Assembly (NCBI RefSeq): GCF_900107265.1
Contig: NZ_FNPJ01000007.1
Coordinates: 1-64,000, forward strand
Length of the DNA stretch: 64,000 bases
DNA from: Nitrosomonas sp. Nm33
GTDB lineage: Bacteria > Pseudomonadota > Gammaproteobacteria > Burkholderiales > Nitrosomonadaceae
Direction: 5' to 3'
A model generated the notes under the pieces. The model had not been told where the DNA came from, searched no databases, and worked only from the letters and a program-made list of their open reading frames with translations. Shown here piece by piece: positions 1,610 through 27,431 of the stretch. Position numbers and translations under genes: made by a program. Numbering within the stretch: position 1 is the first letter of the stretch; each line of letters opens with the position of its first letter.

Positions 1610-1653
1610 AGATTATTAGAATATGTAAGCTAAAAAAATACGTGCTAACACGT
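1610..1653 (-). promoter_or_regulatory. palindrome promoter module, copy 1 (341-aa gene)
   Basis: Read on the minus strand, a 14-bp palindrome ACGTGTTAGCACGT (1640-1653) is followed by exactly 23 bp, beginning with a T-rich tract, and then ATAATCT (1610-1616). With the hexamer AATAAT as the -10, the palindrome is centred near -41.5 and transcription would start near 1605. The same spacing occurs at four other places in the window. Confidence 0.7.
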
Positions 1654-1761
1654 AAGAATAAAAACGTTCCTTTGCTGGGTGAAATACGTTATTCGATTTG
1701 TAAATATATTCATGTTATTTAGCGCGGCCTGGATCAAATATTCTAGCTTTTGAGATTGAAT

Positions 1762-3417
1762 TTATGAGGAGATCTTTTTGAAGTGTCGATAGCGACGAAT
1801 CAGTTGATTGGTTGAACTGTCATGCCCGAGTGCAGGTTCTACCTTACTTTCAAGCTCCGGGATGATGCGCTGAGCCAGCACCTTGCCAAGTTCCACTCCC
1901 CACTGGTCGAATGGATTGATTCCCCAAATCGCGCCCTGGGTAAAAACTGAGTGTTCGTAGAGAGCGATAAGCTTGCCAAGTGCCTCCGGTGTGAGTCGCT
2001 GGGTAAGAATGGTATTGGACGGACGATTGCCCTCAAAGATCCGGTGTGGTACAAGCCAATCGGGTGTGCCTTCGGCCTTCACTTGTTCAATGGTCTTGCC
2101 GAAAGCCAAGGCTTCTGATTGAGCAAAGACGTTCGACAGCAGCATATCGTGATGCCGTCCAAGCGGGTTGAGTGTTTCAATGAAGGCGATGAAATCACAA
2201 GGGATAAGATTGGTTCCTTGATGAAGCAATTGGTAAAACGAATGCTGACCGTTGGTTCCCGGTTCGCCCCAATAGATTGGACTCGTGTTATAGGTAACCC
2301 GGGATCCATTAAGCGTAATCTGCTTGCCGTTGCTTTCCATCACCAATTGCTGCAGATAGGCAGGGAATCGCTTCAAGTACTGCTCATAGGGCAACACGGC
2401 AACAGCCTGGGTACCAAAGAAATCGGTGTACCACAATGTGAGCAAGCCCATCAGTACCGGGAGGTTGTTTTCAAACGGAGCCGTTCGAAAATGCTCGTCC
2501 ATCTGATGAAAACCATTCAGCATGGCCCGAAAGTTAGCCGGTCCGATGGCCAGCATGGTGGAAAGACCGATTGCTGAAGTCATGGAATAACGTCCACCAA
2601 CCCAGTCCCAAAATCCGAACATCTGCGCAGTATCGATGCCGAATTTAGCTACTTCCGCTGCGTTCGTCGAGACGGCGACAAAGTGTTTGGCGATAGACTT
2701 GGTGTCCCCACCGAAAGCGGCGAGCAGCCACTCTCGAGCCGTATGTGCATTCGTCATCGTCTCAAGCGTCGTAAAAGTCTTGGAAGAAACAATGAAAAGC
2801 GTTTCCGCTGGATCGAGATCGTGGACTGCTTCCACAAAATCAGTGCCGTCGATATTCGATACGAAACGGAATGTCATAGCCCGCTCGCTGTAATACTTCA
2901 ATGCCTCATAGGCCATTACCGGTCCCAGGTCTGAGCCGCCGATACCAATGTTGACGACGTTACGAATACGTTTGCCAGTGTGTCCCTTCCAAACACCGCT
3001 CCGCACGCGATCGGAAAAATCAGCCATCTTGTCGAGTACGGCATGTACTTGGGGCACCACGTTCTCACTGTCCACCACGATGGAAGCCTCCTTCGGAGCA
3101 CGCAGGGCGACGTGCAATACAGCGCGATTCTCAGTGATGTTGATCTTTTCACCGTTGAACATGGCGTCGATCCGTGGACGAAGTCCACTTTCTTCGGCCA
3201 GCTGCATGAGTAACTTGAGTGTTTCGTCGGTGACGAGATTCTTCGAGTAATCAAGGAAAAGACCCACCGCCTCAGCCGTCATGTGCTCGCCACGCTGGGG
3301 ATCATCTGCAAAGAGCGTTCGTAAATGGAGGTGACGAACTTGTTCATAATGAGCTGTCAGCGCTTTCCATGCATTACGTTCGGGGAGGGGTGGAATATTT
3401 CCTGTCATATTTGTCAT
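1762..3417 (-). CDS. pgi: glucose-6-phosphate isomerase
   Basis: Pgi interconverts glucose-6-phosphate and fructose-6-phosphate in the cytosol. Family motifs are clear: GIGGSDLGP (sugar-phosphate binding), the [13 protein letters not shown] loop, and the second family signature around [19 protein letters not shown] with the catalytic His. The product is about 551 residues, close to the 549 of the E. coli enzyme. I place the start at 3417, where AGGAG lies 9 nt upstream; the frame remains open for 14 more codons but has no ribosome site there. It follows pgm on the same strand with a 241-nt gap. In this locus it supplies fructose-6-phosphate for phosphoketolase. No copy of the palindrome module lies directly upstream. 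Confidence 0.95.
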
Positions 3418-3658
3418 AATGAGAATCTCCTCTAATTTACTTTCTGTATAACGACGCAAATCAAAATGATCGGGTCTATTCGCTCATCCAGGATACGACG
3501 GACTCCTTTTGTTCCTTCTTCCAAGAGTTTGGTAGTTCAAGCATCAAATTCACGGGGTGGACAAGCGGTAGAAACACTCGTGCCATTACGCAGTTTTGCT
3601 CATCCGTTCTTTGGTAGACTTTGCAGGATGTTCAGCCTGAATGCTCTGCATTAAAGAA

Positions 3659-5305
3659 TTACAATGCGGTACTGACTGCATCGCTCACGATCTGCTGAGC
3701 CTCGTTCACAATTGCGTTGAGATGATCTTCACTCTTAAAGCTCTCTGCGTAGATTTTGTAAATGTTCTCAGTGCCGGAAGGACGAGCTGCGAACCAACCA
3801 TTGTCGGTCACAACCTTAAGACCACCGATGGAAGCGTTATTACCAGGCGCCCTGGTCAACTTCATCCGGATGAGATCGCCCGCAAGTTCTGGGGCTGTAA
3901 CCGCTTCTGGTGATAGTTTTGCAAGCTTCACCTTCTGCTCGGGTGTCGCAGGCGCGTCGATCCGCGTGTAATGCAGTGTGCCAAATTCAGACTGCAGCTC
4001 CTGGTAATGCTCGCCCGGATCCTTGCTCGTGCGAGCAGTGATCTCAGCTGCAAGCAAATCCATGATCAGACCGTCCTTGTCCGTAGTCCACACCGTTCCG
4101 TCCTGCCGCAGGAAGCTGGCTCCGGCACTTTCTTCGCCAGCGAAACAGAGCGATCCATTAAGCAAACCGGGAACAAACCACTTGAAGCCTACCGGCGTCT
4201 CGCACAGCTGGTAACCCAGCTTATTGACCACTCGATCAATCATGCTGCTACTGACCAGAGTTTTGCCAACAACCACCTGGTCAGACCATTTTCTATGAGT
4301 CAGCAAGTAGCGAATCGCTACCGCCAGGTAGTGGTTGGGATTCATCAATCCTGTAGACGGAACGACCACACCATGTCGATCGGCGTCAGGATCGTTGGCA
4401 AAGGCGATGCGATACTGATCTTTCAGGTCCAGAAGTCGGGCCATGGCATACGGACTGGAAGGATCCATCCGAATCTTACCGTCATGATCGACTGTCATGA
4501 ATGAGAATGCTGGATCAATTGTCGGGTTAACGACGGTAATATCCAGCTGATAGACAGCGTTAATAGGCTCCCAATAGGGTTCAGCAGCGCCGCCGAGCGG
4601 ATCGACGGCCAACTTTAAGCCAGCCGCACGGATAGCGTCCATATCGACAACATTGCGCAGATCTTCGACATAAGGCATCACGAAGTCATCCTGATGCGTC
4701 GTGGTTGCCTTGATGGCGGAGGCAAAGGATAGCCGCTTGACACCGATATTCCCTTGGCGCAATAGTTCGTTGGCTCTCTGCTCGACCCATTTTGTTACAT
4801 CGACGTCAGCAGGGCCGCCATGAGGTGGGTTGTACTTGAAACCGCCATCCTCAGGCGGATTATGCGAAGGCGTGATGACAATACCGTCAGCGAGTTGCTC
4901 CTTACGCTCCCGGTTATAAACGAGGATCGCCCGCGAGATAACCGGGGTGGGCGTAACACCGTCGTCTTTCTGGATGATCGTTGTTATGCCGTTGGCTGCC
5001 AGTACCTCCAGCGCGGTACGTTGAGCTGGTCCTGACAAGGCGTGCGTATCTTTGCCCATGTAGAGCGGGCCGTTGATACCCTGACCTTGCCGATAGTCAC
5101 AAATAGCCTGGGTAATCGCCAGAATGTGTGCTTCAGTGAATGATCCGTGCAGTGGTGAACCTCGATGCCCACTAGTACCGAAACTGACTAACTGTGCGCT
5201 ATCCACCAGGTCAGGCCGGCGCTCGTAATACTCACGCTCAAGTCTCGCCAAATCGATGAGTATCTCTTTTGTAGCCGGTTTACCTGCAGCTGGTGAAATC
5301 GTCAT
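3659..5305 (-). CDS. pgm: phosphoglucomutase (alpha-D-glucose specific)
   Basis: Pgm converts glucose-1-phosphate to glucose-6-phosphate. The 548-residue product matches E. coli Pgm-type alpha-phosphohexomutases. It has FGTSGHRGS near the N-terminus, the phosphoserine loop [11 protein letters not shown], the metal-binding loop DPDADRHG, and a C-terminal RPSGTEN phosphate-binding motif. It sits just upstream of pgi, so the pair converts the glucose-1-phosphate released by the nearby glycogen phosphorylase. The 277-bp AT-rich upstream region has a possible sigma-70-like promoter (TTTACT and TATACA elements), but no copy of the palindrome module. Confidence 0.95.
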
Positions 5306-5582
5306 AACTCGTCTCCTTTGATAATATTCCGTCTAAAAAAACTGTGCACAAATTATCTTTTATATGCCTATAACATATTTTGCAATCGTAAGGTAACTGG
5401 AAAATTTACAATGTATAAAGAAAAGTAAACGCCCTTTTCCATCAGAAATTTAATCGCATAGTATTAAAATTAATTGTCATATGTGTTAATAAATCCAAAT
5501 TCCATGATTTATTTGGCATAAGATTATTGAATATCCTCCCATTTTTAAAATTTCTATAACGTAATGTTATTAAAACCATCAC

Positions 5583-7043: not shown

Positions 7044-7044
7044 A

Positions 7045-10000
7045 TTACTTATCCTCCCGTTTTGCTGGCAATCCCTCTTCGGAAACAGGAGCACGAACCG
7101 GAGCAGACACAGTCTCAGGTGTACTCTCACTCTCGTCATCATGCCCACCGCTTGCCGCTTTCTTGCTGGCAAACTTTGCACTGAGAGATTCCAGCAACCA
7201 GAAGAACAGCGGCACAAAGAAAATTGCAATTAGGGTAGATGCGAGCATTCCGCCGATCACACCGGTACCGATCGCGCGCAGGCTGTTTGCGCCGGGTCCG
7301 GTCGCGATTGCGAGCGGCACACAGCCGAGAATAAATGCAAATGATGTCATTACAATCGCACGCAATCTAAGCCCAGCTGCCTCAATAGCTGCCTCTCGGG
7401 CTGGCATACCATGACGAACGCGTTCAATGGCAAACTCGCAGATCAGAATTGCGTTTTTTGCAGATAAACCCACCAGCGTCACCAGACCAACCTGAAAATA
7501 AACGTCATTTTCCAGCCCGAGAACCCAGGTCAGCAGCAGTGCGCCCAGTACTGCGAAAGGAACTGTGAGCACCACTGCTATGGGAAGCGTCCACTTCTCG
7601 AACTGTGCGGCGAGCAGCAAAAACACCACGATCAGGCCAAAGATAAAAGCTGATGAGGAGGTGCCGCCCGCGCCTTTCTCCTCCAGTGCCTGCCCTGCCC
7701 AGGAATAAGCAAAGTCACCGGGCAGTGTTTCGTGCGCTACTTCCTCCATCACCCGGATCGCGTCTCCCGAGCTATAGCCTGGAGCCTGGCTGCCAGTAAT
7801 CTTTACTGCTGGGAAAGCGTTGAAGCGTGTCATCAGTTTCGGTGAAACAACATAGCGGGTTGTAATCAGCGCCGACAGCGGCACGTTAGCGCCACTCGAT
7901 GAGCGAACGTAGACTTTGCTGAAATCCTCCGGCCTTGCCCGGTAGTCCGCGTCCGCCTGAATAATAACGAACCACACACGGCTGAACAGCGAGAACTGCC
8001 CAGCCAATTGGGAGCCGAAATAAGCCTGCATGGTGTTAAAGACATCGGCTACGTGCACACCCAGCACTTCGGCCTTGTTACGGTCGAGATCGACGAAGAG
8101 CTGCTGGCTATTTGCGCTGAACGTCGTGTTCACTGCCTGCAATTCTTTGCGCTCACGCGCTTTTGCAAGAAACGCCTTGAGGGCAGCGTCCGTCGCACGC
8201 GGATCACCTGATCCGCGGTTCTGGATGTAAAATTCAAAGCCCCCAGTGGTACCCAGGCCTGGGATCGAAGGTGGATTAACAGCGAAGGCCCTACCATCCT
8301 TGAGTGCAGCGAATTGTGCATTGAGCCGCTTCAGTGTATCGAACGACAGCAGACTTGCGTCCTTGCGCTCTTCAAAGAGCTTCAACAGACCGAACATGAC
8401 CGCAGCGTTATTGTCCTGCTGACTGTCAACAAAGCTGTAGCCGTTCACCGTACCAACATCCTGTACTGCGGGATCCCGAAGAATAATCTGCTCCAGTTCC
8501 TGACTGAAGCGGCTCGTGACATTCAGACTCGCTGTATCGGAAACCTGGGTAAGCACAAAGAAATAACCCTGGTCCTCATCCGGCACAAAGCTTGCCGGCA
8601 GGATGCGAAACATCACCAGAATGCCGATCACCACAGCGCCAAATACGATGAGCGAAACCGGCCATAGTTGTATGACGCGGGCAACCCTGCCCAAAAACCC
8701 ATGCTGGAGAGACTCAAATCCATTTTCAAATGCCTGAAAGAAACGGTTCTTCTTGCCATGATGCGTCTTGATAATGATTGCAGCCAACGCTGGTGACAAT
8801 GTCAGCGCCATGATGCCCGAGATCACCATTGAGATGGCGATGGTGATTGCAAACTGCTTGTATAGTAGTCCGGTCATTCCACCGAGAAATGCAACCGGCA
8901 GGAACACAGCAAGCAGCACCAGCACGATCGAAATCAGCGCCCCTGCAATCTCTGTCATCGCCTCCTTTGCGGCAGCCAGTGGTGCGAGCCCTTTCTTGGT
9001 GATGTTTACCTCAACATTCTCGACCACCACGATGGCATCATCCACCACCAGACCGATTGCCAGGATCATACCGAACATAGTGAGCATGTTGACCGAAAAT
9101 CCGAACAGATACATGCCGACAAAGGTACCCACGATGGACACCGGTACTGCCAGGATTGGAATCACGGTTGCTCGCAGCGATTGCAGGAAGACAAACACCA
9201 CTAGAACCACCAGTACTACCGCTTCGAAGAAGGTATGCACCACCTTGTCGATCGAGTAAAGAGTGAACTGGCTGGTATCTAGTACGATCTTATAATCCAG
9301 GCCGCTGGGAAATTTCGCTTTCAGCTCCTCCATTTTCTTGCGCACACCCTTCGCGGTTTCAACTGCATTTACACCTGGCTGCTGATAGATGCCGATAGTT
9401 GTCGCAGTCTTGCCATTCATGCGGCTTGGCATAGAATAATCCCGTTGGGAAAGTTCGACTCGCCCAATGTCCTTAATGCGGACAATAGCGGCACCCTCTT
9501 TTGCAGTACGGACGATGATGTTCTCGAACTCTTCAGGCTTAGTGAGCAATCCCTGTGCTGTCACGACATACTGCTGCTCCACTGAAGGAGGCATCGGTGA
9601 AGCGCCGAGCAGGCCGATACCGAAGGTCTGGTTCTGGCTTTGAATTGCTGCACTCACCTCGCTTACTGTGATGCCAAGCTGAGCCATGCGATCAGGTCGT
9701 AACCACACACGCATCGCGATATCGGGCAGACCGAATGTCTTCGCACGATTAGCCCCAGGCACGCGCTTTAATTCGTCGAGCACATAAAGGTTGGCGTAGT
9801 TGGCAATGTAGGCGGCATCGTAGCGTTCATCCGGCGAATAAACCGATACCACCATCATGATACTAGGTGACTTCTTATCTACCGTGATTCCCTGCTCGAC
9901 TACCACCTTCGGCAACTGGGACATCGCCTGGCTCAGGCGGTTCTGCACGTTGACCTGATTGATATCCGGATTGCTGCCCTGATTGAACACGACGACGATC

Positions 10001-10269
10001 TGAACGTTACCGCTCGAGGAACTGGTTGAATAGAAATAGAGCAGATTATCCAATCCATTCAACTGCGCCTCGATGGGTGCTGCCACATTGTTTGCGATCA
10101 CCTCGGCGGTGGCACCTGGGTAGCGTGCGTCGATCGTGACCTGTGGAGGCGCCATGTCAGGATACTGCTCGATCGGTGAGACAGACATCGACACCGCACC
10201 AGCGAGTACGATCAGAATCGAGATGACTGTCGAGAGAATCGGTCGGTCAATAAAAAAGTGGGTGAACAT
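7045..10269 (-). CDS. RND multidrug efflux transporter (MexB/AcrB, HAE1 type)
   Basis: This is the inner-membrane proton-driven pump subunit, 1074 residues, the usual HAE1 size. It starts with the FFIDRPI segment and first membrane helix, followed by a large periplasmic porter domain. The proton-relay pair DD is in GLVVDDAIVVVENVE in TM4, near residue 405. A second porter domain and six more helices follow. The C-terminal tail after residue 1040 is charged and poorly conserved. It lies 12 nt after the adaptor gene and 1 nt before the channel gene, so the three are translationally linked. The substrate cannot be told from sequence; hydrophobic drugs or endogenous toxic metabolites are typical. 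Confidence 0.95.
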   Translation of the reverse strand: MFTHFFIDRPILSTVISILIVLAGAVSMSVSPIEQYPDMAPPQVTIDARYPGATAEVIANNVAAPIEAQLNGLDNLLYFYSTSSSSGNVQIVVVFNQGSNPDINQVNVQNRLSQAMSQLPKVVVEQGITVDKKSPSIMMVVSVYSPDERYDAAYIANYANLYVLDELKRVPGANRAKTFGLPDIAMRVWLRPDRMAQLGITVSEVSAAIQSQNQTFGIGLLGASPMPPSVEQQYVVTAQGLLTKPEEFENIIVRTAKEGAAIVRIKDIGRVELSQRDYSMPSRMNGKTATTIGIYQQPGVNAVETAKGVRKKMEELKAKFPSGLDYKIVLDTSQFTLYSIDKVVHTFFEAVVLVVLVVFVFLQSLRATVIPILAVPVSIVGTFVGMYLFGFSVNMLTMFGMILAIGLVVDDAIVVVENVEVNITKKGLAPLAAAKEAMTEIAGALISIVLVLLAVFLPVAFLGGMTGLLYKQFAITIAISMVISGIMALTLSPALAAIIIKTHHGKKNRFFQAFENGFESLQHGFLGRVARVIQLWPVSLIVFGAVVIGILVMFRILPASFVPDEDQGYFFVLTQVSDTASLNVTSRFSQELEQIILRDPAVQDVGTVNGYSFVDSQQDNNAAVMFGLLKLFEERKDASLLSFDTLKRLNAQFAALKDGRAFAVNPPSIPGLGTTGGFEFYIQNRGSGDPRATDAALKAFLAKARERKELQAVNTTFSANSQQLFVDLDRNKAEVLGVHVADVFNTMQAYFGSQLAGQFSLFSRVWFVIIQADADYRARPEDFSKVYVRSSSGANVPLSALITTRYVVSPKLMTRFNAFPAVKITGSQAPGYSSGDAIRVMEEVAHETLPGDFAYSWAGQALEEKGAGGTSSSAFIFGLIVVFLLLAAQFEKWTLPIAVVLTVPFAVLGALLLTWVLGLENDVYFQVGLVTLVGLSAKNAILICEFAIERVRHGMPAREAAIEAAGLRLRAIVMTSFAFILGCVPLAIATGPGANSLRAIGTGVIGGMLASTLIAIFFVPLFFWLLESLSAKFASKKAASGGHDDESESTPETVSAPVRAPVSEEGLPAKREDK

Positions 10270-10281
10270 AAAATCGCCCGC

Positions 10282-11463
10282 CTATTTCTGCGCAGCTGCA
10301 GCTGGTTTGGCTACTGCTTTATCATTACCCGCTGCTGGCTCCATAATTTTGACCGACTGACCGGGAACCACCTTGAGCATGCCTTCCACCACAATCCGGT
10401 CACCGGTCTGTAGTCCGGTCAAAATCACAATGTCTTTTTCTCCTTCGTAGTCACCCACCACTACCGGCCGCACTTCCGCTGTACCGTCCGGCTTGATCAC
10501 GTACATGATGTGACCGTTCGAACCCTGCTGCACCGAAAGCTGCGGCACCACGATTGCGTTCGGCCGCAACCCACCCTTCACGTATGCCGTCACGAACATA
10601 CCTGGACGGAGCTCTCTATTGGGATTTGGCAGCACCGCACGCACCATAAAAGAACCGGTGTCCTGGCTGAACGATGGATCGGTAAAGTTAATTTTTCCTC
10701 TTCCCGCAAACGGTTTTCCGTCAGGAAGAACAAGCTCTACGTCGTAATCTTTATTCTTGGGCAGGATAATTAATCCTTTTTGGCTTTCCTCGCGGATGCG
10801 TGCCATCTGGTTCTGGGAAACGCTGAACGTAACCCACATCGGGTCAATCGCAGCAACATAGGTGAGGTTAGCGGTTTCTGCCATCGCATTCACAAACGTA
10901 CCCTCACGCTGGAGTGAGCGGCTTGCAAGACCCGTCACGGGGGAGCGTATAGTGGTATAGCCGAGATTCAGTTCAGCTTCCTTCACTTTCGCATTTGCTG
11001 CGAACACTGCCGCTCTTGCTGCGTCGAATTCTCCCTGTGCTCGATCCAGATCAGCCTGTGAAAGCGCGTTCTGTTCAGTGAGCGGTTTCACACGCTTGAG
11101 ATTGGCATCCGCTGTTCTAAATCTCGCCTGCTGAGCTTGCAATACACCGCGAGCAGCTTCTAACTCAGCCTTGAATGGTTTTTGATCGAGCTGAAACAGC
11201 AGTTGCCCTTCTTTCACCAGCTCACCTTCCTGGTAAGCAATGCGGTCGAGAAAACCTGAAACGCGGGCGACGATATCAACTTGGCGCGAGCTTTCGGTTT
11301 GTGCCACGAAGTTGGGTGTGTAAGGAATATTCCGAGGAGTGACGGTCATTACAGTCACTTCGGGCGCCGGGCGCTGCTGTGGGGCAGACGTTTCCCTGGA
11401 GCAACCAGTTAGAATGGAGATAGTAGCGAAGACAAGGGTAACAGTGAGAACTTGTATGTACAT
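10282..11463 (-). CDS. RND efflux periplasmic adaptor lipoprotein (MexA/AcrA type)
   Basis: This membrane-fusion protein links the RND pump to the outer-membrane channel. The start at 11463 is preceded by AGGAG and gives 393 residues with a lipoprotein signal ending in ILTGC. The barrel-sandwich half-motif VSGFLDRIAYQEGELVKEGQLLFQLD and a helical hairpin follow, then the second lipoyl half ending GYTTIRSPVTG. The same frame is open upstream to an ATG at 11547, but that would put the lipobox too far inside. It is the first gene of the efflux operon and is driven by a palindrome promoter module about 100 nt upstream. Confidence 0.92.
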   Translation of the reverse strand: MYIQVLTVTLVFATISILTGCSRETSAPQQRPAPEVTVMTVTPRNIPYTPNFVAQTESSRQVDIVARVSGFLDRIAYQEGELVKEGQLLFQLDQKPFKAELEAARGVLQAQQARFRTADANLKRVKPLTEQNALSQADLDRAQGEFDAARAAVFAANAKVKEAELNLGYTTIRSPVTGLASRSLQREGTFVNAMAETANLTYVAAIDPMWVTFSVSQNQMARIREESQKGLIILPKNKDYDVELVLPDGKPFAGRGKINFTDPSFSQDTGSFMVRAVLPNPNRELRPGMFVTAYVKGGLRPNAIVVPQLSVQQGSNGHIMYVIKPDGTAEVRPVVVGDYEGEKDIVILTGLQTGDRIVVEGMLKVVPGQSVKIMEPAAGNDKAVAKPAAAAQK

Positions 11464-11566: not shown

Positions 11567-11610
11567 AGATTATGCAAATGCGCTAATTAAAAAAATACGT
11601 GTGAGCACGT
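11567..11610 (-). promoter_or_regulatory. palindrome promoter module, copy 2 (RND efflux operon)
   Basis: On the minus strand, ACGTGCTCACACGT (11597-11610) is followed by exactly 23 bp starting with a run of T, then ATAATCT (11567-11573). Predicted transcription starts near 11562, leaving a leader of about 99 nt. The module begins only 5 nt beyond the restored end of ppk2. Confidence 0.7.
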
Positions 11611-11615
11611 AATAT

Positions 11616-14205: not shown

Positions 14206-15391
14206 GGTTTATCAGCGCCAGCGTATGGCGCGCGATCATCAATTCTTCGTTGGTGGGTATAACCCAGACTGAGACCCTGCTGTCCTCCGCTGACGAGATA
14301 CACGGACCACCACGCACATTGGCAGCGGCATCGATCGATACACCCAACCAGGCACAAGCTTGCAGGATACGCTCACGGATCACCGGTGAATGCTCGCCAA
14401 TTCCGGCTGTGAACACTAGGCCATCCACTCCGCCAAGCACCGCTGCAAGGGCTCCGATCTGTTTGACGGTATAATGCACGAAATACTCAACCGCCAATTG
14501 CGCGCGTGACTCGTGGCTTTCCAGCAGGATACGCATATCGTTGCTGATGCCGGACAATCCAAGTAAGCCAGATTCCTGGTATAACAGCTTTTCCAGTTCA
14601 GCACTCGATAAGCCGCACTGATTGGTGAGATGCAGTAACACCCCTGGATCGAGGGCGCCTGGTCGCGTTCCCATCGGAACCCCATCAAGTGGCGAAAAAC
14701 CCATGGTCGAATCTACACTCTTGCCTGCTTGCAGTGCGCACAGACTCGCCCCATTGCCGAGATGGGCCACGATCACCCGCCCATCCGCAATCTTGGGCGC
14801 GATCTTCGGCAGCATCGTTGCAATGTATTCGTAGGAGAGGCCGTGGAAACCGTAACGCCTTACCCCGGACTCATAATATTCCCAGGGTAACGCATAAAGA
14901 TCAGCAATCTGCGGGTGGGCGCGGTGAAACGCGGTATCGAAACACGCAACCTGTGGTACCTGCGGTTGCTTTTCACGTATTGCACGTATCGCTGCCAGAT
15001 TATGTGGCTGATGCAGAGGGGCGAGCGGAATCAATTGCTCCAGCATTGTATGAATCTCTGTATTAACCAGCACAGGACTGGAAAATTGGGTGCCACCATG
15101 CACCACGCGATGTCCAACGGCAAGTAGCGACTCATGTTGCAAGTGCTCACGCAGCCAGGTGCCGACAAGCGAAATTGCGTCCCCCACTGTGGCAACTTCC
15201 GGAATGGTAAAATCAGATTCAATGAGCATAGCACCTGTACCGTTTCTTGCTTTTAGACATGGACGAGCACCGATACCATCCATCTGTCCGCGCACAACCA
15301 GTTGCAAGTTTCCGGCATCATCCACGTGAAACACCGAAAATTTCAGACTGGATGAACCCGCATTGACGACCAGAATAATACTGCTGTTCAT
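14177..15391 (-). CDS. ackA: acetate kinase
   Basis: AckA interconverts acetyl-phosphate plus ADP with acetate plus ATP in the cytosol. All family motifs are present in 404 residues: VNAGSSSLKF at the N-terminus, YGFHGLSYEYI, HLGNGASLCA (phosphate binding), MGFSPLDGVPMGTRPGALDPG, and the C-terminal FTAGIGEHSP. It overlaps glgX by 4 nt at its start and sulP by 29 nt at its end. There is no pta gene beside it. Phosphoketolase at the head of the same operon makes acetyl-phosphate directly, so AckA is the ATP-yielding last step of a phosphoketolase shunt. Confidence 0.95.
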   Translation of the reverse strand: MNSSIILVVNAGSSSLKFSVFHVDDAGNLQLVVRGQMDGIGARPCLKARNGTGAMLIESDFTIPEVATVGDAISLVGTWLREHLQHESLLAVGHRVVHGGTQFSSPVLVNTEIHTMLEQLIPLAPLHQPHNLAAIRAIREKQPQVPQVACFDTAFHRAHPQIADLYALPWEYYESGVRRYGFHGLSYEYIATMLPKIAPKIADGRVIVAHLGNGASLCALQAGKSVDSTMGFSPLDGVPMGTRPGALDPGVLLHLTNQCGLSSAELEKLLYQESGLLGLSGISNDMRILLESHESRAQLAVEYFVHYTVKQIGALAAVLGGVDGLVFTAGIGEHSPVIRERILQACAWLGVSIDAAANVRGGPCISSAEDSRVSVWVIPTNEELMIARHTLALINHGKGGGQVE

Positions 15392-17556
15392 GTACGTGCC
15401 TCGAGCACAACCACACTGCGTGGCCTAACCGGGCAGGATTCTCCGGTTATTGGCATCTGATTCTCGCGAACAAGGATATCCGCAGGAGCAGATTGGGCAG
15501 TGTCGATTGCCAGATGCCAGCATTGGGTACGCAAGGGCGGTAAAGGCGCATCCAAGGACTGGTCCGACATATTCAGCACTACGTGCAGGTCCTCTTCGTC
15601 CTCACGCTGACCGGCAATAGTAAAAGCAAGTATTCGCGCCTGTGGATCATACCAGAGCGGCTCGTTGAGCCTTACTCCGTGCCAAGTAATATCCGCGTAA
15701 TCGCGGCCGGGCATCGGTGCGCCAGTAAAGAAACGATTGCTGGTAAGACTGGGATGGCGCCGGCGCAGCGCAATCAATTCACGGGTATAACGCAGCATGT
15801 CGCGGTTACGCTCGGTAAGTCGCCAATCGAACCAGCTTAACTCATTATCCTGACAATAAGCGTTGTTGTCACCATGCTGCGTACGCAGCACTTCGTCGCC
15901 GGCTAGCAGCATAGGTACACCACGCGATAGCATGAGAATAGCCAGTAGATTTTTTGCCTGCTGCCAGCGCAGCTTGCATACTGCCGGATCGTCGCTCTCG
16001 CCCTCGACACCGCAGTTCCAGCTCATATTGTCGTTGCTGCCATCGCGATTGTCCTCCCCATTGGCCTCGTTATGCTTGCTGTTGTAGCTCACCAGATCGT
16101 AGAGGGTAAATCCATCGTGGCAGGTGATGAAATTGATACTGTTGGCCGGCTTACGCTCGTCGTGAGCATAGAGATCGGCACTGCCAGAAATGCGTGCCGC
16201 TATTTCACCAATGAGCCCGGGATCACCACGCACAAAGCGACGCATCACATCCCGGTAACGGCCATTCCATTCAGACCAGGCCATGCCAGGAAAAGCGCCA
16301 ACGTGATATAAGCCAGCTGCATCCCAGGCCTCAGCAATCAACGGAACCTGGGAGAGTATGCGTGAGGACTCAATAGTCCAGGGTAGAGGTGGATTAGCCA
16401 GCGGCAAGCCATTGTCTCCGCGTGCAAAAACACTGGCAAGATCAAAGCGAAATCCGTCCACCCCCAGTACCTCCACCCAGTATTCCAGACAATGCACGAT
16501 GAATGCCGTCACCACCGGATGATTGCAATTCACGGTATTGCCGCAGCCAGTAAAGTCAAGGTAACGGCGTCGGTCAATGGCATCAAGGTGGTAAAAAATA
16601 TCATTGGCAAGGCCCCGGAAATGGATCACTGGTCCAGTTTCTCCACCCTCCGCCGTGTGGTTGAAAACCACATCGAGCAGTACACAGATATCAGCCGCAT
16701 GCAAAGCATCGACCAAGTCGCGAAACTCCCGAGTGGCGCGCACTGGATCGATGCAATAGCCAGGATGCGGCGCCCAGAAACTGTGCGTGCTGTAACCCCA
16801 ATAATTGTGCAGCTCACGAGCTGCAACGCCAGGCTGAATATCCTGTGTGTCAAAGGCCATCACCGGCAGGAGCTCGACGTGAGTCACGCCTAGCGCCTGC
16901 AGATAGGGAATCTTCTCCTTGAGCGCAGCAAAAGTGCCAGGGTAAGCTACCCCGGAGGAAGGATGGTGGGTAAAGCCACCCACGTGCAGCTCGTAGATCA
17001 CCGCCCCTTGCAGGTCGGTCTGCTTGCAGCGCAACGTTGTATCGGTTGAGATCCGAGGGAGCGGTTCGGCAACAATGGCACGTAAGCTTTTCGAGTCGCT
17101 ATCCTGCTCACTGCAGGCACGCTTGCGATCCCACAGCGTATCGCTCACCGCCTGCGCCCAGGGATCGAGTAATTCTTTGCCAGGGTAGAAACGCCTTCCA
17201 GTCGCGGCAGTATCGCTGGGTCCATCCATGCGCCAAGTGTAATGCGTCCCGACTGGCAGCCCCTCGATGAATACATGCCAGAAAAAAAAACTACGGTTAT
17301 GTTCGGGATCGAGGAGAATTACCTGAAATGGCATTGGACTATCCGCAGCAGCATACAACAGCAGTTCTGCCCGGTCTGCATGTCGACTAAAGATGCAGAA
17401 ATTCACACCTTCCGCGCTGACAGTAACACCGGATGGAAAGCGACTTCCAGGCCTAATCGTAAAAGGCGGCGAAGTCTTATGGTAAGTCGCCGAGGCCAGG
17501 TTGGTTTCGTCTACGTTATTCTCCGCTTGTATGCTCCCTTTATTTTGTGGCTGCAT
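15388..17556 (-). CDS. glgX: glycogen debranching enzyme (isoamylase type)
   Basis: GlgX hydrolyses alpha-1,6 branch points in phosphorylase-limited glycogen. The 722-residue product has an N-terminal CBM48-like domain (around SAEGVNFCIFSRHA), followed by a GH13 barrel. Catalytic positions are visible: the nucleophile Asp in DGFRFDLAS, the acid Glu in PLIAEAWDA, and the transition-state Asp in FITCHDGFTL. It lies 11 nt after glgP and overlaps ackA by 4 nt. With GlgP it gives complete breakdown of branched glycogen. Confidence 0.94.
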   Translation of the reverse strand: MQPQNKGSIQAENNVDETNLASATYHKTSPPFTIRPGSRFPSGVTVSAEGVNFCIFSRHADRAELLLYAAADSPMPFQVILLDPEHNRSFFFWHVFIEGLPVGTHYTWRMDGPSDTAATGRRFYPGKELLDPWAQAVSDTLWDRKRACSEQDSDSKSLRAIVAEPLPRISTDTTLRCKQTDLQGAVIYELHVGGFTHHPSSGVAYPGTFAALKEKIPYLQALGVTHVELLPVMAFDTQDIQPGVAARELHNYWGYSTHSFWAPHPGYCIDPVRATREFRDLVDALHAADICVLLDVVFNHTAEGGETGPVIHFRGLANDIFYHLDAIDRRRYLDFTGCGNTVNCNHPVVTAFIVHCLEYWVEVLGVDGFRFDLASVFARGDNGLPLANPPLPWTIESSRILSQVPLIAEAWDAAGLYHVGAFPGMAWSEWNGRYRDVMRRFVRGDPGLIGEIAARISGSADLYAHDERKPANSINFITCHDGFTLYDLVSYNSKHNEANGEDNRDGSNDNMSWNCGVEGESDDPAVCKLRWQQAKNLLAILMLSRGVPMLLAGDEVLRTQHGDNNAYCQDNELSWFDWRLTERNRDMLRYTRELIALRRRHPSLTSNRFFTGAPMPGRDYADITWHGVRLNEPLWYDPQARILAFTIAGQREDEEDLHVVLNMSDQSLDAPLPPLRTQCWHLAIDTAQSAPADILVRENQMPITGESCPVRPRSVVVLEART

Positions 17557-20946: not shown

Positions 20947-20957
20947 GTTACTTGGCC

Positions 20958-23354
20958 TCAATACGGCCATACCCAGTTGGTGAACTCATCCTTGTCGGTA
21001 CCATGCTCATGCGCATAAGCCAAATTGAGGATGATCTGATTCTTCATCTGCTCTTTCAAATGCGCCGCCTTGGCAGCAAGCCCAGGAACCCGATCAATGA
21101 CATCGATCACCAGCGTAAAACGGTCGGTCTGATTCAAGATCGCAAGCTCTAGCGGAGTATTGATGTTGCCGCGTTCTTTGTAACCCCGCACGTGCAGATT
21201 TTCGTGGTTCTTGAAGCGGTAAGCGAGTTTGTGAATCAACCAAGGATAGCCGTGGAAATTAAAAATCACTGGTTTGTTGGTCGTGAAAAGACTGTCGAAT
21301 TCCCGGTCGGTTGAGCCGCATGGGTGTTCGGTTATCGGTTGCATTTTGTAGAGATCCACCACGTTGACAAAACGTACTTTCAGATCAGGAAGATGCTCGC
21401 GCAACAAAGCAGTCGCCGCCAGTGCCTCCTGGGTAGCCACGTCACCGCAAGATGCCATCACCACATCCGGCTCCACCCCCTCATCGTTGCTGGCACGGCG
21501 CCAAATACCGATACCCTTGGCGCAATGCACGATCGCCTCCTCGATGGTGGTGAACTGCAAATGTTTCTGTTTGTCGGCAACAATGACATTGATGCAATCG
21601 GTTGAACGCAGACATTGATCTGCAATCACCAGCAAGGTATTGGCGTCAGGCGGCAGATAGATGCGGGTGACACTTGGACTCTTGTTAGTAACCAGATCGA
21701 TGAAACCGGGATCCTGATGCGAAAAACCGTTGTGATCCTGTCGCCAAACGGTGGAGGATAAGAGTATGTTCTCCGACGCCACTGGAGCGCGCCATGGTAC
21801 ATGGTTTTTGGAGATATCCAGCCATTTGGCGTGCTGATTGAACATGGAATCGATTACGTGGGCGAAAGCTTCGTAGGTATGAAAAAAGCCGTGCCGGCCA
21901 GAAAGAAGATAACCTTCCAGCCAGCCAATCAGAGTGTGCTCGGAGAGCATTTCCATCACCCGTCCATCACGGGACAATTCGCCGCCATCGGCATCCTCAG
22001 GTAACAAATCCGCCATCCAAACCTTCTTGCTCACCTCATAGATCGACTGCAGGCGGTTAGAGGCCGTCTCATCGGGGCCAAAAACGCGAAAGTTGGTCAT
22101 GTTGTTGCGCATCACATCACGCAAAAACTCTCCGAGTGGTTTGGTATTCTCATACAGCACCTTGCCGGCCTGTTTGACCTCCACCGCATAGTTGCGGAAA
22201 TCCGGCAGTTTGAGATCTTTGCGCAGCAGGCCACCGTTGGCATGCAGATTGGCGCTCATGCGTCGCTGCCCCTGTGGGGCGAGCTCACGCAGCTCGGAAA
22301 TGAGCCGGCCGCTCGCGTCGAACAGTTCTTCTGGCTTGTAACTGCTCAACCAGTCTTCCAGCAGTTTCAAATGCGCTGGATTGGTACGCACATCCGAGAA
22401 GGGTACCTGATGCGAGCGCCAGGAACCCTCAGCCTTGTGACCATTGATTTCCTTCGGCCCCGTCCAGCCTTTTGGCGTGCGCAGCACGATCATGGGCCAA
22501 CTCGGCAACTCAGCCTTGCCGCTCGCGCGCGCCGCTTTCTGGATAGAGCGAATTCCACTAATGACAGTATCGAGCGTCTGCGCCATTGCCTGGTGCATGG
22601 AATCGGGATCGTCACCTTCTACAAAATAGGGTGTGTACCCATAGCCGTGGAAAAGCGCCGCCAGTCGATCGTGACTGATGCGTGCGAGGATGGTCGGATT
22701 AGCAATTTTGTAGCCATTGAGATTCAAAATTGGCAGTACTGCACCATCGCGGATGGGGTTAATAAACTTGTTCGAATGCCAGGCGGTAGCAAGTGGTCCG
22801 GTTTCGGCTTCGCCATCACCCACTACGCAGGCAACGATCAGATCCGGGTTATCCAGACAGGCGCCATAGGCATGAGACAGGCTATAGCCCAGCTCGCCGC
22901 CCTCATGAATGGAGCCAGGTGTTTCCGGGGTAACGTGCGAGCCGATTTGACCGGGGAAGGAGAATTGTTTGAAGAACTTGCGCAACCCCTCCGTGTCTTC
23001 ACTCTTGTCGGGATAAACCTCAGAATAAGTGCCTTCTAGATAGGTAGGTCCGATAACGCCCGGCGCCCCATGTCCAGGTCCGGCCATAAAAATCATGTCA
23101 AGGTCGTCACGCTTGATGACTCGATTGAGGTGCAACCAGACGAACGATAGCGCCGGGCTCGCACCCCAATGGCCGAGCAGTCGATGCTTGACATGCTCGA
23201 TCTTGAGCGGTTCCTTGAGCAGGGGATTGTCACGCAGATAGATCATGCCCACCGAAAGATAGTTGCAGGCGCGCCACCAGGCGTTCATCGCGCGCAACTC
23301 TTCTGCACTGAGTGGATTGCTGACAGTTGCAGGTCTTTGTCCGGTGTAGTTCAT
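20958..23354 (-). CDS. xfp: xylulose-5-phosphate/fructose-6-phosphate phosphoketolase
   Basis: Xfp is a thiamine-diphosphate enzyme that splits xylulose-5-P or fructose-6-P with phosphate to acetyl-phosphate plus glyceraldehyde-3-P or erythrose-4-P. The 798-residue product has family segments such as [21 protein letters not shown] and the ThDP motif [14 protein letters not shown]. The start at 23354 is fixed by AAGGAG 8 nt upstream. It is also fixed by the promoter module at 23398-23441, which excludes the in-frame ATG at 23420 from the predicted transcript. It heads a seven-gene operon whose other enzymes break down glycogen and convert acetyl-phosphate to acetate and ATP. Confidence 0.95.
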
Positions 23355-23397
23355 CGTCAGAACTCCTTTTTTATTTTTATAAAGGGATATAGCACAC

Positions 23398-23441
23398 AGC
23401 CTATATAAGTATCCTTGCAAAAAAAATACGTGCGAACACGT
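23398..23441 (-). promoter_or_regulatory. palindrome promoter module, copy 3 (xfp-glycogen operon)
   Basis: On the minus strand, ACGTGTTCGCACGT (23428-23441) is followed by exactly 23 bp with an initial A plus eight T, then ATAGGCT (23398-23404) where the other copies have ATAATCT. The overlapping TATATA could serve as the -10. Predicted transcription starts near 23393, giving a leader of about 39 nt before xfp. Confidence 0.68.
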
Positions 23442-23697
23442 AAAAATAGTCTCATTAACAAATACAAACGATCAAAATTCTTCTTTCTTTTGACTCAAAT
23501 TGCCGAGTCTCCGAAAAACCTGGGGCAGTTCAGAAACTTGCACAGATAATTTATGGTGGAGCTCCATTGGTGTATCTTTGGAAAACTGAGAAGCAGCATA
23601 GCCTTCAGATCCTGTGATTGAAACCACGGTATTTATGATCATGCTGGTTTTACAATCCAGGTAGTGTGTGTCGACTTGATTTAAAAGGAGCATAAAG

Positions 23698-24567
23698 ATG
23701 AAAAGGGGATTACTGATGGGTGCTTTTTTAATTTCACTTTTTGAGTCTGCCTATGCACTTGAAGTACAGGGACATCGAGGTGCTCGTTGGGTGCGACCAG
23801 AAAATACTCTTCCAGCCTTTGAATATGCATTGCAAGTGGGCGTGGATACCTTGGAGTTAGATACGCTTATAACCAAAGATGGACAAGTAGTCGTTCATCA
23901 TGATCCGATGTTAAATCCTGATATTTGCTTAGATCCTCAAGGAAAGAAAATCACAACCCAAATTCCCATTCGTTCACTGACATTGAAGGAGTTAAAAGCT
24001 TATGACTGCGGTTCCTTAGTCAACCCAAGCTTCCCTCAGCAAGTAGCTCAACCCAAAACACCCATTCCAACCCTCAATGAGGTATTTGAAATGGTTAAAA
24101 AATCAAAGCTTCCCGCTGCAAAAAAAGTGCATTTCAATATTGAAACAAAAAGTGAAGAGGCTCACCCTGAATACTCGCCTTCGCCCGAGGAATTTGTAAA
24201 GCTTGTGCTAGCGGTCGTGAAAAAACATAACCTCATGAGTCGAGTGATTTTGCAATCCTTTGACTTACGCACTTTAAAAGTTGCACGCCAATTAGAACCT
24301 AGGCTATCTCTTTCCATTTTGATCGAAGATAGACCTCCAGAAGCAGGTACTCTGGTACAGTTAATGAAAGCCTATCAGGCACAAATTCTTTCGCCAAATT
24401 ATGAATGGCTGACGGCACAAGATGTTGCAGAGGTCCACAAAATGGGAGCCCGCGTAATTCCATGGACTCCTAACACGGAAGAAGATTGGCAATCAATGAT
24501 TGAAAAAGGCGTAGATGGCATTATCACTGACAATCCCAAAGAACTTATTGATTTTCTTAAACGATGA
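23698..24567 (+). CDS. periplasmic glycerophosphodiester phosphodiesterase
   Basis: GDPD enzymes hydrolyse glycerophosphodiesters to glycerol-3-phosphate and an alcohol. A signal peptide (MKRGLLMGAFLISLFESAYA, cleaved after residue ~20) directs it to the periplasm. The mature protein opens with the catalytic motif HRGARWVRPENT, then ELDTLITKDGQVVVHHDP with the second catalytic His. The C-terminal WTPNTEEDW...GVDGIITDNP is also typical. AAAAGGAG precedes the ATG. Its codons are clearly more AT-rich than the glycogen operon next to it, and it is transcribed in the opposite direction, so it may be a separate acquisition. Phosphate or glycerol salvage is the likely role. Confidence 0.9.
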   Translation: MKRGLLMGAFLISLFESAYALEVQGHRGARWVRPENTLPAFEYALQVGVDTLELDTLITKDGQVVVHHDPMLNPDICLDPQGKKITTQIPIRSLTLKELKAYDCGSLVNPSFPQQVAQPKTPIPTLNEVFEMVKKSKLPAAKKVHFNIETKSEEAHPEYSPSPEEFVKLVLAVVKKHNLMSRVILQSFDLRTLKVARQLEPRLSLSILIEDRPPEAGTLVQLMKAYQAQILSPNYEWLTAQDVAEVHKMGARVIPWTPNTEEDWQSMIEKGVDGIITDNPKELIDFLKR

Positions 24568-24611
24568 ATGAACGTGCAATTTAACCGATTACTGCTTCAA
24601 ACTTATAACAT

Positions 24612-24655
24612 AAGTGCTTGCACGTATTTTCTTAACCGATATATTTCGATAATCT
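24612..24655 (+). promoter_or_regulatory. palindrome promoter module, copy 4 (glycine-zipper gene)
   Basis: This is the only plus-strand copy: AAGTGCTTGCACGT (24612-24625, one mismatch in the left arm), exactly 23 bp, then ATAATCT (24649-24655). Its 23-bp spacer closely resembles that of copy 5, including TATATTTCG just before ATAATCT. Predicted transcription starts near 24660, about 167 nt before the next gene. Confidence 0.65.
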
Positions 24656-24826
24656 GTTGAAGCGTTATTCATAACAAACCCCCAGGATGAGTAATAGATT
24701 TTCCTTTATCGGCAGCAGGAGAAATTCAAAATAACCTGTTAGAGGAAAATTCAATATCAACTAAGGCTGGGGATATATCTATTCCCTCTAAAGCTATAAG
24801 AGTGATGATTTCTGAGGAGATAAGCC

Positions 24827-25246
24827 ATGTTTAAACCAATATCCATTCATCTGGTCATCGGTGCCTTCGGTGTTATCTTTGGTAGCTCGGTGCTTGCACA
24901 AGACGATGCATTGTTTCAACAAACCCAAGCCGAGTGCCAGAGTATCGCTCAACAGCAAACTGGCTATAATCCCAGCGCTGACCAGCCACAAGTAGGCGGC
25001 CGAGCCAGAGGCGCGGCCGCCGGCGCTATGGCAGGTGCCGCAAAGGGTAGAAGCGAAGCTAGTCAACACGGACACGTTTCTGAGAGCGTAACTGAAGAAT
25101 ACACTCGTAGTCAGATGGAAGAAAAAGCAAAGATGGGGGCTGCTGCAGGCGCGGCCAAACAACGCCAAGAGCGTCGTCAGGACAGAAGAGATCAGAATGC
25201 TTACAATGAGGCGTTTGCTTCCTGCATGGCCGCTAAAGGGTTCTAG
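24827..25246 (+). CDS. exported glycine-zipper-like small protein
   Basis: This is a 139-residue protein with a signal peptide ending at SSVLA/QDD (residue ~24). A Gly/Ala-rich stretch GGRARGAAAGAMAGAAKG follows (residues ~57-75), resembling glycine-zipper segments, then a charged region and a second AAAGAAK stretch. It ends AYNEAFASCMAAKGF, a C-terminal pattern with one Cys seen in small exported glycine-zipper proteins. Another Cys lies at AECQ near residue 37, so a disulfide is possible. GAGGAG precedes the ATG. The long leader carries promoter module copy 4. An envelope or stress-related role is likely, but the function is not known. Confidence 0.75.
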   Translation: MFKPISIHLVIGAFGVIFGSSVLAQDDALFQQTQAECQSIAQQQTGYNPSADQPQVGGRARGAAAGAMAGAAKGRSEASQHGHVSESVTEEYTRSQMEEKAKMGAAAGAAKQRQERRQDRRDQNAYNEAFASCMAAKGF

Positions 25247-25400
25247 GCAGGAAAATAAAAAACTTGTTCAATCACATTATCTACCATAAATGAGATTCAT
25301 GTTTCTGGTTGAATGAAAGGGTTTATTTGCACTAGCTAAAGCTTAGCCTGACCTTCCATCTGCGAAGATCAGCTACTGCGATATGTTTCCTGGAGTAAAC

Positions 25401-26084
25401 ATGGTGCAAGAAAAAGCCCTCACTCATAATCGTTTGAAGACCCCACGTGCGGCGGCTGTGGCTGGTATTGTATTTTCCGTGTTGTATATCATCAACCTCG
25501 TACTCATCCAAATTTCAGCTCCAGCAGATCCGCATGATGCTGGAACTTGGCTGGCGAGTAACTGGAAGTCTATCAATCTGGCACTGTATCTGCAACCGTT
25601 CGTAGGCATCGCCTTTTTATGGTTCATCGGCGTGCTGCGAGACCGAATTGGACACTACGAAGACCGCTTTTTTGCCACTGTCTTTCTCGGAAGCGGCCTA
25701 TTGTTTCTTGCCATGCTGTTTGCTTCGGGCGCAGTGGCGGCAGGCCTTTTATTCAGCTACAGCGCCACACCCGACAAGTTTATCGAATCAGACATCTACA
25801 CATTTGGTCGCACCGTAGTGCACCAAATCGTCAACGTATATGCGATGAAGATGGCGGGGGTGTTTATGATCTCAACCTGTACCGTCGCCGTCCGTACAAA
25901 AATTCTCCCGCGGTGGATTGTGTTTCTTGGCTATGTAATGGCGCTGTTGCTGTTACTGAGCGTCGGGTATTTTAAATGGACGCCGCTGGTATTTCCATTA
26001 TGGGTGCTGCTGGTCAGCACATATATTTTGCTAACGAATCTCAGGAACAAACCGAACGCGGCTTCTCCAGCGGATAAATCATAA
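25401..26084 (+). CDS. uncharacterised integral membrane protein (six TM segments)
   Basis: This is a 227-residue inner-membrane protein with about six hydrophobic helices: AVAGIVFSVLYIINLVLI, a segment after LYLQPFVG, FLGSGLLFLAMLFASGAVA, MAGVFMISTCTVAV, IVFLGYVMALLLLLSVGY, and the last near PLVFPLWVLLV. The start at 25401 is preferred because GGAG lies 5 nt upstream; an ATG six codons earlier has no ribosome site. I do not recognise a catalytic motif. It lies 154 nt after the glycine-zipper gene on the same strand and faces the AI-2E family gene convergently, with 40 nt between stops. Confidence 0.7.
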   Translation: MVQEKALTHNRLKTPRAAAVAGIVFSVLYIINLVLIQISAPADPHDAGTWLASNWKSINLALYLQPFVGIAFLWFIGVLRDRIGHYEDRFFATVFLGSGLLFLAMLFASGAVAAGLLFSYSATPDKFIESDIYTFGRTVVHQIVNVYAMKMAGVFMISTCTVAVRTKILPRWIVFLGYVMALLLLLSVGYFKWTPLVFPLWVLLVSTYILLTNLRNKPNAASPADKS

Positions 26085-26124
26085 CTGCTCCCAAGACGAC
26101 ACTGCGCTGCTTTGCAGTGCAGGC

Positions 26125-27207
26125 CTACCGAGATAAAGATTCCATATTCAACCAGGCCTGAAACAGCTTATAGCCCAACGTCAACACAATAGCGCCGACG
26201 AACAGTCCGACGATACCGGATAACAACATACCACCGATAGCGCCCAGAAAAATCACCACCATGGGCACGCCAACACCACGTCCCAGCAACAACGGCTTTA
26301 ACACGTTATCCAGCACCATAATTAAAATGTTCCAGATCAGGAATATCATTGCGGTGAGCGTATCACCGGTTGCGAAAACGTAGATAATGGCTGGAACCAC
26401 AATGAGTCCCACCCCGATCTGCACCACTGCCAAGATCAGGCATAACAACGCCCATATTCCTGCACCGGGCACACCAGCAAAGATAAAACCCACACCTGCC
26501 AACAATGCCTGGATGACGGCAACGCCCAATATACCACGGACAACACTGCGAATTGTGGCTTCGGCAAGGTTGGCAAAGTCATCGCCGCGCTCGCCCACCA
26601 ATCGCCTGGATATACCATGGGCGAGCTGATAACTGCTCTCGGAATGAGCCAGCAAGACACCGGCAATCACGAACGCAGCAACAAATATGATTATCCCCAT
26701 ACCCGCACTGGCAGCGGCGTCGACTAACCAGGCGCCGGCCGCTTTGAGTTGGGGTTGCACTAGCTTCAAAGCCTCAACCAAATTCGTTGAGGCAAGATCC
26801 CACATTTTCGCGATGGGTTCACCGATGAGGGGCCAATTCCTGACAGCTTCTGGCGGCGGTGGAATAGCAAACTGCCCATGGAGAAATTGCTCCGCTAGTG
26901 TTACGACGTTTTGCACCAGTAATTTCGTCAACATGACGGTAGGTACCATTAACAGCGCCAGCAAAACAGTGATAAGCAGCATTGCTGCGATTACGCGCTG
27001 ACCGCCAAGTAGATTGACCAGCATGAGATAAAGAGGATGAATTGCCACTGCAATAATGATTCCCCACACCAGCGGGATAATAAACGGCTGCAATATTTGA
27101 AAACACCATATCAGCACGATCGCCAGCACACCCAGGCGTATGACCGTTTCCGCCACTTTACTGGACAAATCATCGCGTGGAGGAGGTGTGATATTTGAAG
27201 TCATCAT
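26125..27207 (-). CDS. AI-2E family transporter (PerM/TqsA type)
   Basis: This 360-residue inner-membrane protein has the layout of the AI-2E exporter (UPF0118) family. Two N-terminal helices (VLAIVLIWCFQILQPFIIPL) are followed by the I-A-I-H-P-L motif after helix 2. A soluble insertion comes next (residues ~100-150), then the conserved VPGAGIWALLC region. A C-terminal helix cluster contains DNVLKPLLLGRG and VPMVVIFLGAIGG. Family members export autoinducer-2 or act as Na+/H+ antiporters, so the substrate is open. AAGGAG precedes the tandem ATGs at 27207/27204. A leader of about 176 nt separates it from promoter module copy 5. Confidence 0.88.
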   Translation of the reverse strand: MMTSNITPPPRDDLSSKVAETVIRLGVLAIVLIWCFQILQPFIIPLVWGIIIAVAIHPLYLMLVNLLGGQRVIAAMLLITVLLALLMVPTVMLTKLLVQNVVTLAEQFLHGQFAIPPPPEAVRNWPLIGEPIAKMWDLASTNLVEALKLVQPQLKAAGAWLVDAAASAGMGIIIFVAAFVIAGVLLAHSESSYQLAHGISRRLVGERGDDFANLAEATIRSVVRGILGVAVIQALLAGVGFIFAGVPGAGIWALLCLILAVVQIGVGLIVVPAIIYVFATGDTLTAMIFLIWNILIMVLDNVLKPLLLGRGVGVPMVVIFLGAIGGMLLSGIVGLFVGAIVLTLGYKLFQAWLNMESLSR

Positions 27208-27387
27208 GGACTCCTTATGCGTTATTTTGAGCTTGCATGCGATGCGCCGGTTTCACCCTCAGCTAAGGAAAACACCCTAAGGGTATGACGGACTAATCTG
27301 ATTCTGTACAACCGTTATCGCGTTGTTCGATAATTTCACTCTCCTTGGCAATGGACAGGAAAAATAAACGCTATTTATATTAAGAAT

Positions 27388-27431
27388 AGATTATCGAAAT
27401 ATACTGACTAAAAGAATACGTGTAAGCACGT
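27388..27431 (-). promoter_or_regulatory. palindrome promoter module, copy 5 (AI-2E family gene)
   Basis: On the minus strand, ACGTGCTTACACGT (27418-27431) is followed by exactly 23 bp, then ATAATCT (27388-27394). Predicted transcription starts near 27383. The rest of the 467-bp gap between rpoN and this gene (27208-27674) shows no gene that I can support. Confidence 0.7.

Follow-up and report, generated by a model that had tools for sequence, protein, structure and literature searches.

What reads the promoter-like modules that recur in a 64,000-nucleotide stretch of the Nitrosomonas sp. Nm33 genome (contig NZ_FNPJ01000007.1, positions 1 to 64,000; the whole of this stretch is called the window), where five copies of a short palindrome each precede a −10-like sequence at one fixed distance? 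An earlier note on this DNA had assigned these modules to a class II activator of the CRP/FNR family. We find that the module is real and that the observation was right and is larger in extent than could be seen from the window; its regulator is probably a two-component system of FixL/FixJ-like type rather than a CRP/FNR protein. The best explanation, to which we assign a probability of roughly 0.82, is that the modules are promoters activated by a FixJ/StyR-like response regulator, encoded with its kinase on contig C71 of the same genome, and that they control a stress or low-energy programme. Its basis in the sequence is the module itself, the spacing, the spread through the genus, the place of an operator beside the kinase gene and the co-occurrence with the response regulator. 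The five modules are as follows.

1610..1654, minus strand: module 1; operator TACGTGTTAGCACGTA at 1639-1654, T-tract, −10 TAATCT at 1610-1615, predicted start ~1603
11567..11611, minus strand: module 2; operator TACGTGCTCACACGTA at 11596-11611, −10 TAATCT, predicted start ~11560
23398..23442, minus strand: module 3; operator TACGTGTTCGCACGTA at 23427-23442, −10 TAGGCT, predicted start ~23391
24611..24655, plus strand: module 4; operator TAAGTGCTTGCACGTA at 24611-24626 (one mismatch), −10 TAATCT, predicted start ~24662
27388..27432, minus strand: module 5; operator TACGTGCTTACACGTA at 27417-27432, −10 TAATCT, predicted start ~27381

The window holds four exact copies of ACGTG-N4-CACGT (at 1640, 11597, 23428 and 27418) and a fifth palindrome with a single mismatch at 24612, AAGTGCTTGCACGT; all five lie where the earlier note had placed them, and each is followed, in the direction of the downstream gene, by 23 bp and then ATAATCT (four modules) or ATAGGCT (one). 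The exact copies compare with 0.01 expected, and four or more were found in 0 of 100 shuffles. Allowing up to two mismatches gives 11 places against 17 expected: the loose palindrome alone is not enriched, whereas exact copies are far above chance. The tail is the module-defining part. A weight matrix whose 32 training sites all come from G011 and G018, with the genome of the window (G000) held out, scores the five sites at 41 to 65 bits and the next place in the window at −9.5; its maxima in 10 shuffles of the window in 2-base blocks lie between −16.1 and −4.5. An Rfam search of the window returned no match. Several copies (L026, L032, L034 and others) share in part a leader, roughly AATAAAAAGGCGTTTATT, some 10-40 bp after the −10, which may form a hairpin.

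The architecture departs from that first description in several respects. The arms of the operator are 6 bp and not 5 nt (TACGTG...CACGTA), with the T-tract next, and several sites in other species read TACGTA-N4-TACGTA or mixed forms, so that we write the operator TACGTR-N4-YACGTA; the T-tract is typical of the Nitrosomonas communis group and absent at many sites near kinase genes elsewhere. A further one is the −10 element. Among 56 sites chosen in G000, G011 and G018 by palindrome plus T-tract with at most three mismatches (from G000, 18 of 22 such places were taken, four with three mismatches were left out, and the flanks of most had already been inspected), at least five of the seven letters of ATAATCT stand at spacing 23 in 40 sites; no other spacing accounts for more than 8, the number at spacing 15. 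The most conserved letters are T39, A40 and T44, and position 42 is variable. Sigma-70 −10 hexamers usually show just such a conserved T, A and T around a variable middle; we therefore prefer to read TAATCT as the hexamer, which begins two bases downstream of the NATAAT of the earlier note. The alignment A1 and the sequence-only model R1 were made from 46 of the 56 sites, and because the ten dropped were those with a poor or displaced −10, conservation of this element in A1 is partly selected. A less biased test comes from 37 sites upstream of FixL-like kinase genes (described below), in whose selection the palindrome alone counted. Each of T39, A40 and T44 occurs in 34 of them, and in 33 of the 37 the gap between the 16-mer and TANNNT, read toward the divergent gene, is exactly 23 bp (next best gap, 8/37); these promoters are partly orthologous, are not 37 independent cases, and differ much in their spacers. 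With the start assumed 7 nt downstream of the hexamer, the operator centre in both sets would stand at −43.5 and not at −41.5, the centre of a CRP/FNR class II operator that the earlier note had proposed.

A palindrome on the −35 side of a promoter might also be a repressor operator overlapping the −35 region. We hold this to be very improbable: no consensus −35 is seen by eye in the modules, as the earlier note had also observed, and 33 of 37 promoters keep the spacing rigidly although their spacers have diverged, as contact with polymerase would lead one to expect. CGATAA, which we take to resemble the −10 of the flagellar sigma factor, had prompted that factor as a candidate, which was dropped as no TAAA was seen by eye at the right distance. 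The interpretation in the earlier note is partly supported: a conserved activator-type module of fixed geometry and a regulon hold up, and the activator-dependent reading stands, with the regulator family and the exact position revised.

In the Nm33 genome as a whole the exact palindrome occurs 11 times and the reversed control not once. Nine of the 11 are outside open reading frames (ORFs) of at least 60 aa; the two inside long ORFs have neither T-tract nor −10-like sequence. Seven of the nine carry the T-tract (the other two have a weaker tail), and in these the −10-like element is at spacing 23 in six and at 22 in one (G000:C48:741). A strict module search over 84,980 species, each represented by one genome, in a set that may leave out the window's own, returned 23 stretches, 22 of them from Nitrosomonas: N. 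communis Nm44 and the metagenome-assembled genome mag.23, Nm34, Nm132 and the metagenome-assembled genome SJ634. This distribution suggests that the genome of the window belongs to the N. communis group. The remaining stretch, from Ulvibacter (L137), is in a promoter-like place before a 915-aa ORF and was taken as chance, as was a strict match in one viral contig (L156) that lies inside ORFs. When R1 was run over 85 Nitrosomonas genomes, with stricter filters by which weak matches were lost, matches at E ≤ 0.5 numbered 35 in G018 (Nm34), 34 in G085, 31 in G086, 30 in G075, 27 in G000 and 25 in G011, and 0 to 8 in each of the other 79; of the six rich genomes, G075, G085 and G086 had no part in the training of R1.

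Could these copies be a dispersed repeat, duplicated promoters or chance? A few pairs do share flanks: about 276 bp upstream of module 1 (window ~1660-1935) are 80% identical to the region upstream of a site on contig C89 near 46470 (L122), a likeness that amounts to a copied upstream region. Only 11 in-register flank matches outside the module, within the same genome, occur among the 56 sites, and the held-out matrix separates the window sites. The flank comparison led us to reject such an origin for most sites, and we give it next to no credence as an account of the modules.

In favour of a CRP/FNR class II activator are the inverted repeat, with its N4 and its place near −41, and the weak −35 region; such genes are present in the genome, and in Nm34 three CRP-like paralogs of 268-275 aa have a module upstream (L105 1958-2764, minus; L107 1956-2783, minus; L108 3282-4088, plus). 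We nevertheless consider it improbable. Of the CRP/FNR genes of G000, three are above the Pfam cut-off (a fourth, weak match lay outside the tests), and none of the three has an operator at 11/12 within the 5-7 kb around it. Two of them, followed across the genus in a test that did not include FNR itself, show no association with the motif (p = 1.0 and 0.18), and for one of the two G085, which has 34 R1 matches, holds no ortholog at E ≤ 1e-30. The Nm34 268-aa family was rejected as regulator, with 0 matches in G000 and G011 despite their 27 and 25 R1 matches, and the centre is read at −43.5. In Nm34, the FixJ-type system may feed a second regulator layer through these paralogs. The earlier statement that the window holds no regulator gene is generally right for those of its ORFs that were scanned, with one exception:

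27675-29138, minus strand: RpoN (sigma-54) gene; LptA/LptD_N-domain and LptC genes adjoin

The candidate that we favour lies outside the window, at G000:C71:8949-11065, among three module-like sites on that contig. It is a pair composed of a 498-aa PAS-PAS-HisKA-HATPase kinase and a 207-aa REC-GerE response regulator, the latter being one of six GerE-domain genes in G000; at 11/12, the neighbourhoods of the other five are without a site. The response regulator has the REC domain (PF00072, 2.1e-30) and the GerE helix-turn-helix (PF00196, 4.6e-19) that define the NarL/FixJ family, and its best solved relatives are 1yio (3e-52), which we take to be StyR, and FixJ (5xso, 6e-48). By NCBIfam equivalog it is not FixJ proper (217.6 bits against a cut-off of 255), nor is the kinase FixL (210.8 against 850), although the kinase core matches FixL-containing chimeras at 1.7e-43 and the first of its two PAS domains is related to the haem PAS of FixL. 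FixL senses oxygen by a haem whose proximal histidine lies in the RHEHDGY stretch of the PAS domain. The two histidines of this stretch align with D and Y in the Nitrosomonas sensor PAS, and haem-based oxygen sensing of the FixL type is therefore not supported.

Two lines of evidence tie this pair to the module. Neighbourhoods were taken for 42 of the 54 Nitrosomonas genomes that carry the response regulator, and 41 held a kinase match; 28 of the 41 have an operator of at least 11/12 identity at a distance of 94-197 bp, mostly near 108 bp, before the start of the kinase gene, and at 10/12 or better the count is 37. At 11/12 or better, the 260-bp segments upstream of the kinase, 10,660 bases in all, contain 28 sites, and the remaining 692,323 bases contain 22 (binomial p = 7e-38). 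Across the genus, an ortholog of the response regulator (E < 1e-40) is found in 54 of 85 genomes, and all 21 genomes with a motif match at E < 1e-3 have one, as against 0 of 31 genomes without the ortholog that show such a match (Fisher p = 1.4e-5, or 2.5e-4 once the six rich genomes are set aside). In these counts, G103, with a 73-residue fragment (E 3.5e-25), was scored as lacking the regulator, and G004 and G078, with partial matches, as having it.

From these features we infer the binding, the phosphorylation, the direction of activation, the signal and the programme. Each module would be a sigma-70-type promoter with a −10 of TAnnnT, usually TAATCT, in which a phosphorylated dimer of the response regulator is predicted to bind the 16-bp inverted repeat at about −43.5; there it would adjoin RNA polymerase and stand in for the absent −35 contact, and in this way the regulator of the C71 pair would switch on the programme.

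Several observations count against this assignment. A site at 10/12 is lacking from four of the 41 kinase loci, and the best match to the kinase in L268 lies ~6 kb away from the response regulator. Of eight control palindromes, GATCAR-N4-YTGATC has 30 matches in the same loci, where the operator has 50, and the remaining seven have 0 to 15. At E < 0.05 a motif match occurs in 7 of the 31 genomes without the regulator as compared with 32 of the 54 with it; the line at E < 1e-3 was set after inspection of the table, and at that line 33 of the 54 have no match to a model trained on the N. communis group. The species are related, so that the counts are not independent, and the genus-wide comparison covers one of the six GerE genes. 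Lastly, the −10 geometry at the kinase-proximal sites faces the divergent gene (toward the kinase gene no TANNNT gap exceeds 6/37), so that the site may flag this gene as the target of another regulator; we read it as a target promoter beside the regulator, with no sign of class II autoregulation.

That some other activator reads the operator, the gene beside the kinase being merely its target, is accordingly consistent with TANNNT at fixed spacing toward the divergent gene, and the search for regulators covered the CRP and GerE families only. The divergent gene, however, varies among genomes while the operator on the kinase side persists: by eye it is DUF2934-like, CBS-like or a short exported protein depending on the species, and by Pfam it is DUF2934 in G011 and CBS in G000. 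As the motif also co-occurs with the response regulator, we regard another activator as unlikely and retain the FixJ/StyR-like protein. Relatives of the latter in 27 further loci (L303-L329; three from Nitrosomonas, 24 from other genera) gave no clear operator result, the flanks being mostly short of the kinase start.

Known systems offer partial likenesses. PMC5874301 gives ATAAACN4GTTTAT as the StyR/TodT/TmoT operator, which shares with ours the 6-4-6 inverted repeat of 16 bp, and these systems share a REC-GerE regulator with 1yio as best solved match; the letters (TACGTR) differ, the module matching ATAAACN4GTTTAT in layout only, and the predicted targets in Nitrosomonas are many. In alignment, the StyR contact residues K175, V176 and H179, as named in PMC5874301, correspond to E, I and S of the Nitrosomonas response regulator. 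For the TdiR group (anaerobic toluene), the same paper gives the proposed operator GGTGTTCGCACC: the GTG-N4-CAC core is common to both, and the inner GTGTTCGCAC is found letter for letter in module 3. TdiS kinases are described there with two tandem PAS domains and one transmitter, as in the Nitrosomonas kinase; outer arms and gene set differ, and the likeness rests on the operator and the kinase layout. The alphaproteobacterial FixJ motifs GTAMGTAG and GTACGTAG (PMC4999443 and PMC13327599) share the letters TACGTA with our operator, and FixJ has few known targets according to PMC4999443, as against the many predicted here. The kinase core and response regulator match those of FixL/FixJ, whereas the Nitrosomonas sensor PAS is without both histidines of the FixL stretch. 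The mycobacterial DosR/DevR dormancy regulon includes Hsp20, CBS, hibernation-factor and nitroreductase genes, and such genes are in or beside the Nitrosomonas regulon; the lineage is another one and the DosR/DevR operator differs from TACGTR-N4-YACGTA. The C71 scan found no module before the nitroreductase gene. DosR/DevR is a NarL-subfamily regulator as well, as stated in PMC3029386.

Which programme would such a regulator serve? The predicted targets in the window are an orphan 341-aa gene, RND efflux, a phosphoketolase-led run, a 139-aa protein and an AI-2E family transporter.

507-1532, minus strand: 341-aa ORF behind module 1, no Pfam or NCBIfam match
10285-11463 and 7045-10269: HlyD-family and AcrB-family RND genes, downstream of module 2
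20958-23420 (ORF as listed): phosphoketolase, first gene behind module 3; 798 aa long if begun at the ATG that has a ribosome-binding site
Same-strand run after the phosphoketolase: LOG-like, glycogen phosphorylase, acetate kinase, SulP and PPK2 genes; the family scan of this run left out the 722-aa ORF at 15388-17556
24827-25246, plus strand: 139-aa ORF, downstream of module 4
26125-27207, minus strand: AI-2E family transporter, downstream of module 5

Elsewhere in G000 the predicted targets include CHRD and DUF2934 proteins, a transketolase, a flavodoxin-fold protein and a cation efflux protein and, behind the weaker-tail sites of C71, CBS, an S30AE-plus-cold-shock hibernation factor and Hsp20. 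In relatives they include a cold-shock protein, DUF533, a TIGR04073 protein and an sll1863-family stress protein; several downstream genes have no family match. The phosphoketolase-glycogen, ribosome-hibernation, Hsp20, CBS, cold-shock, CHRD and efflux targets together suggest a stress or dormancy (low-energy) regulon. In G011, a protein with a TIR and a SIR2-like domain, a pairing of defence type, is downstream of a module-like site (L082:3175-4503), and a sigma-54-dependent activator-like protein (best NCBIfam match RtcR, below cut-off) is downstream of a module site (L080:1322-2701).

We conclude that this is a new operator and regulon of an already known kind of regulator. The earlier note knew of no such operator, and the literal string ACGTGNNNNCACGT was indeed not found in the literature searched, a result that holds for that spelling only; nor did the Nitrosomonas literature searched, judged from titles and the starts of abstracts and with subscription journals mostly outside the search, describe this regulon. 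To our knowledge, little is known of the regulons of ammonia oxidisers, and the module supplies an operator, a candidate regulator, predicted start sites and, for each genome of the N. communis group, between 25 and 35 predicted sites. If the scheme as a whole is true, it would show a possible switch by which a nitrifier enters a survival programme, and would clearly exemplify a regulon that has expanded while the geometry of its promoters stayed fixed. A more far-reaching proposal, which we advance tentatively and at somewhat less than even odds, is that a Nitrosomonas system of the FixJ class, without the FixL haem ligand, directly runs a dormancy or energy-stress regulon convergent with that of mycobacterial DosR; it would be small across much of the genus and expanded to 25-35 promoters in the N. 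communis group by recruitment of one rigid module, including a fermentative route of phosphoketolase, acetate kinase and glycogen breakdown.

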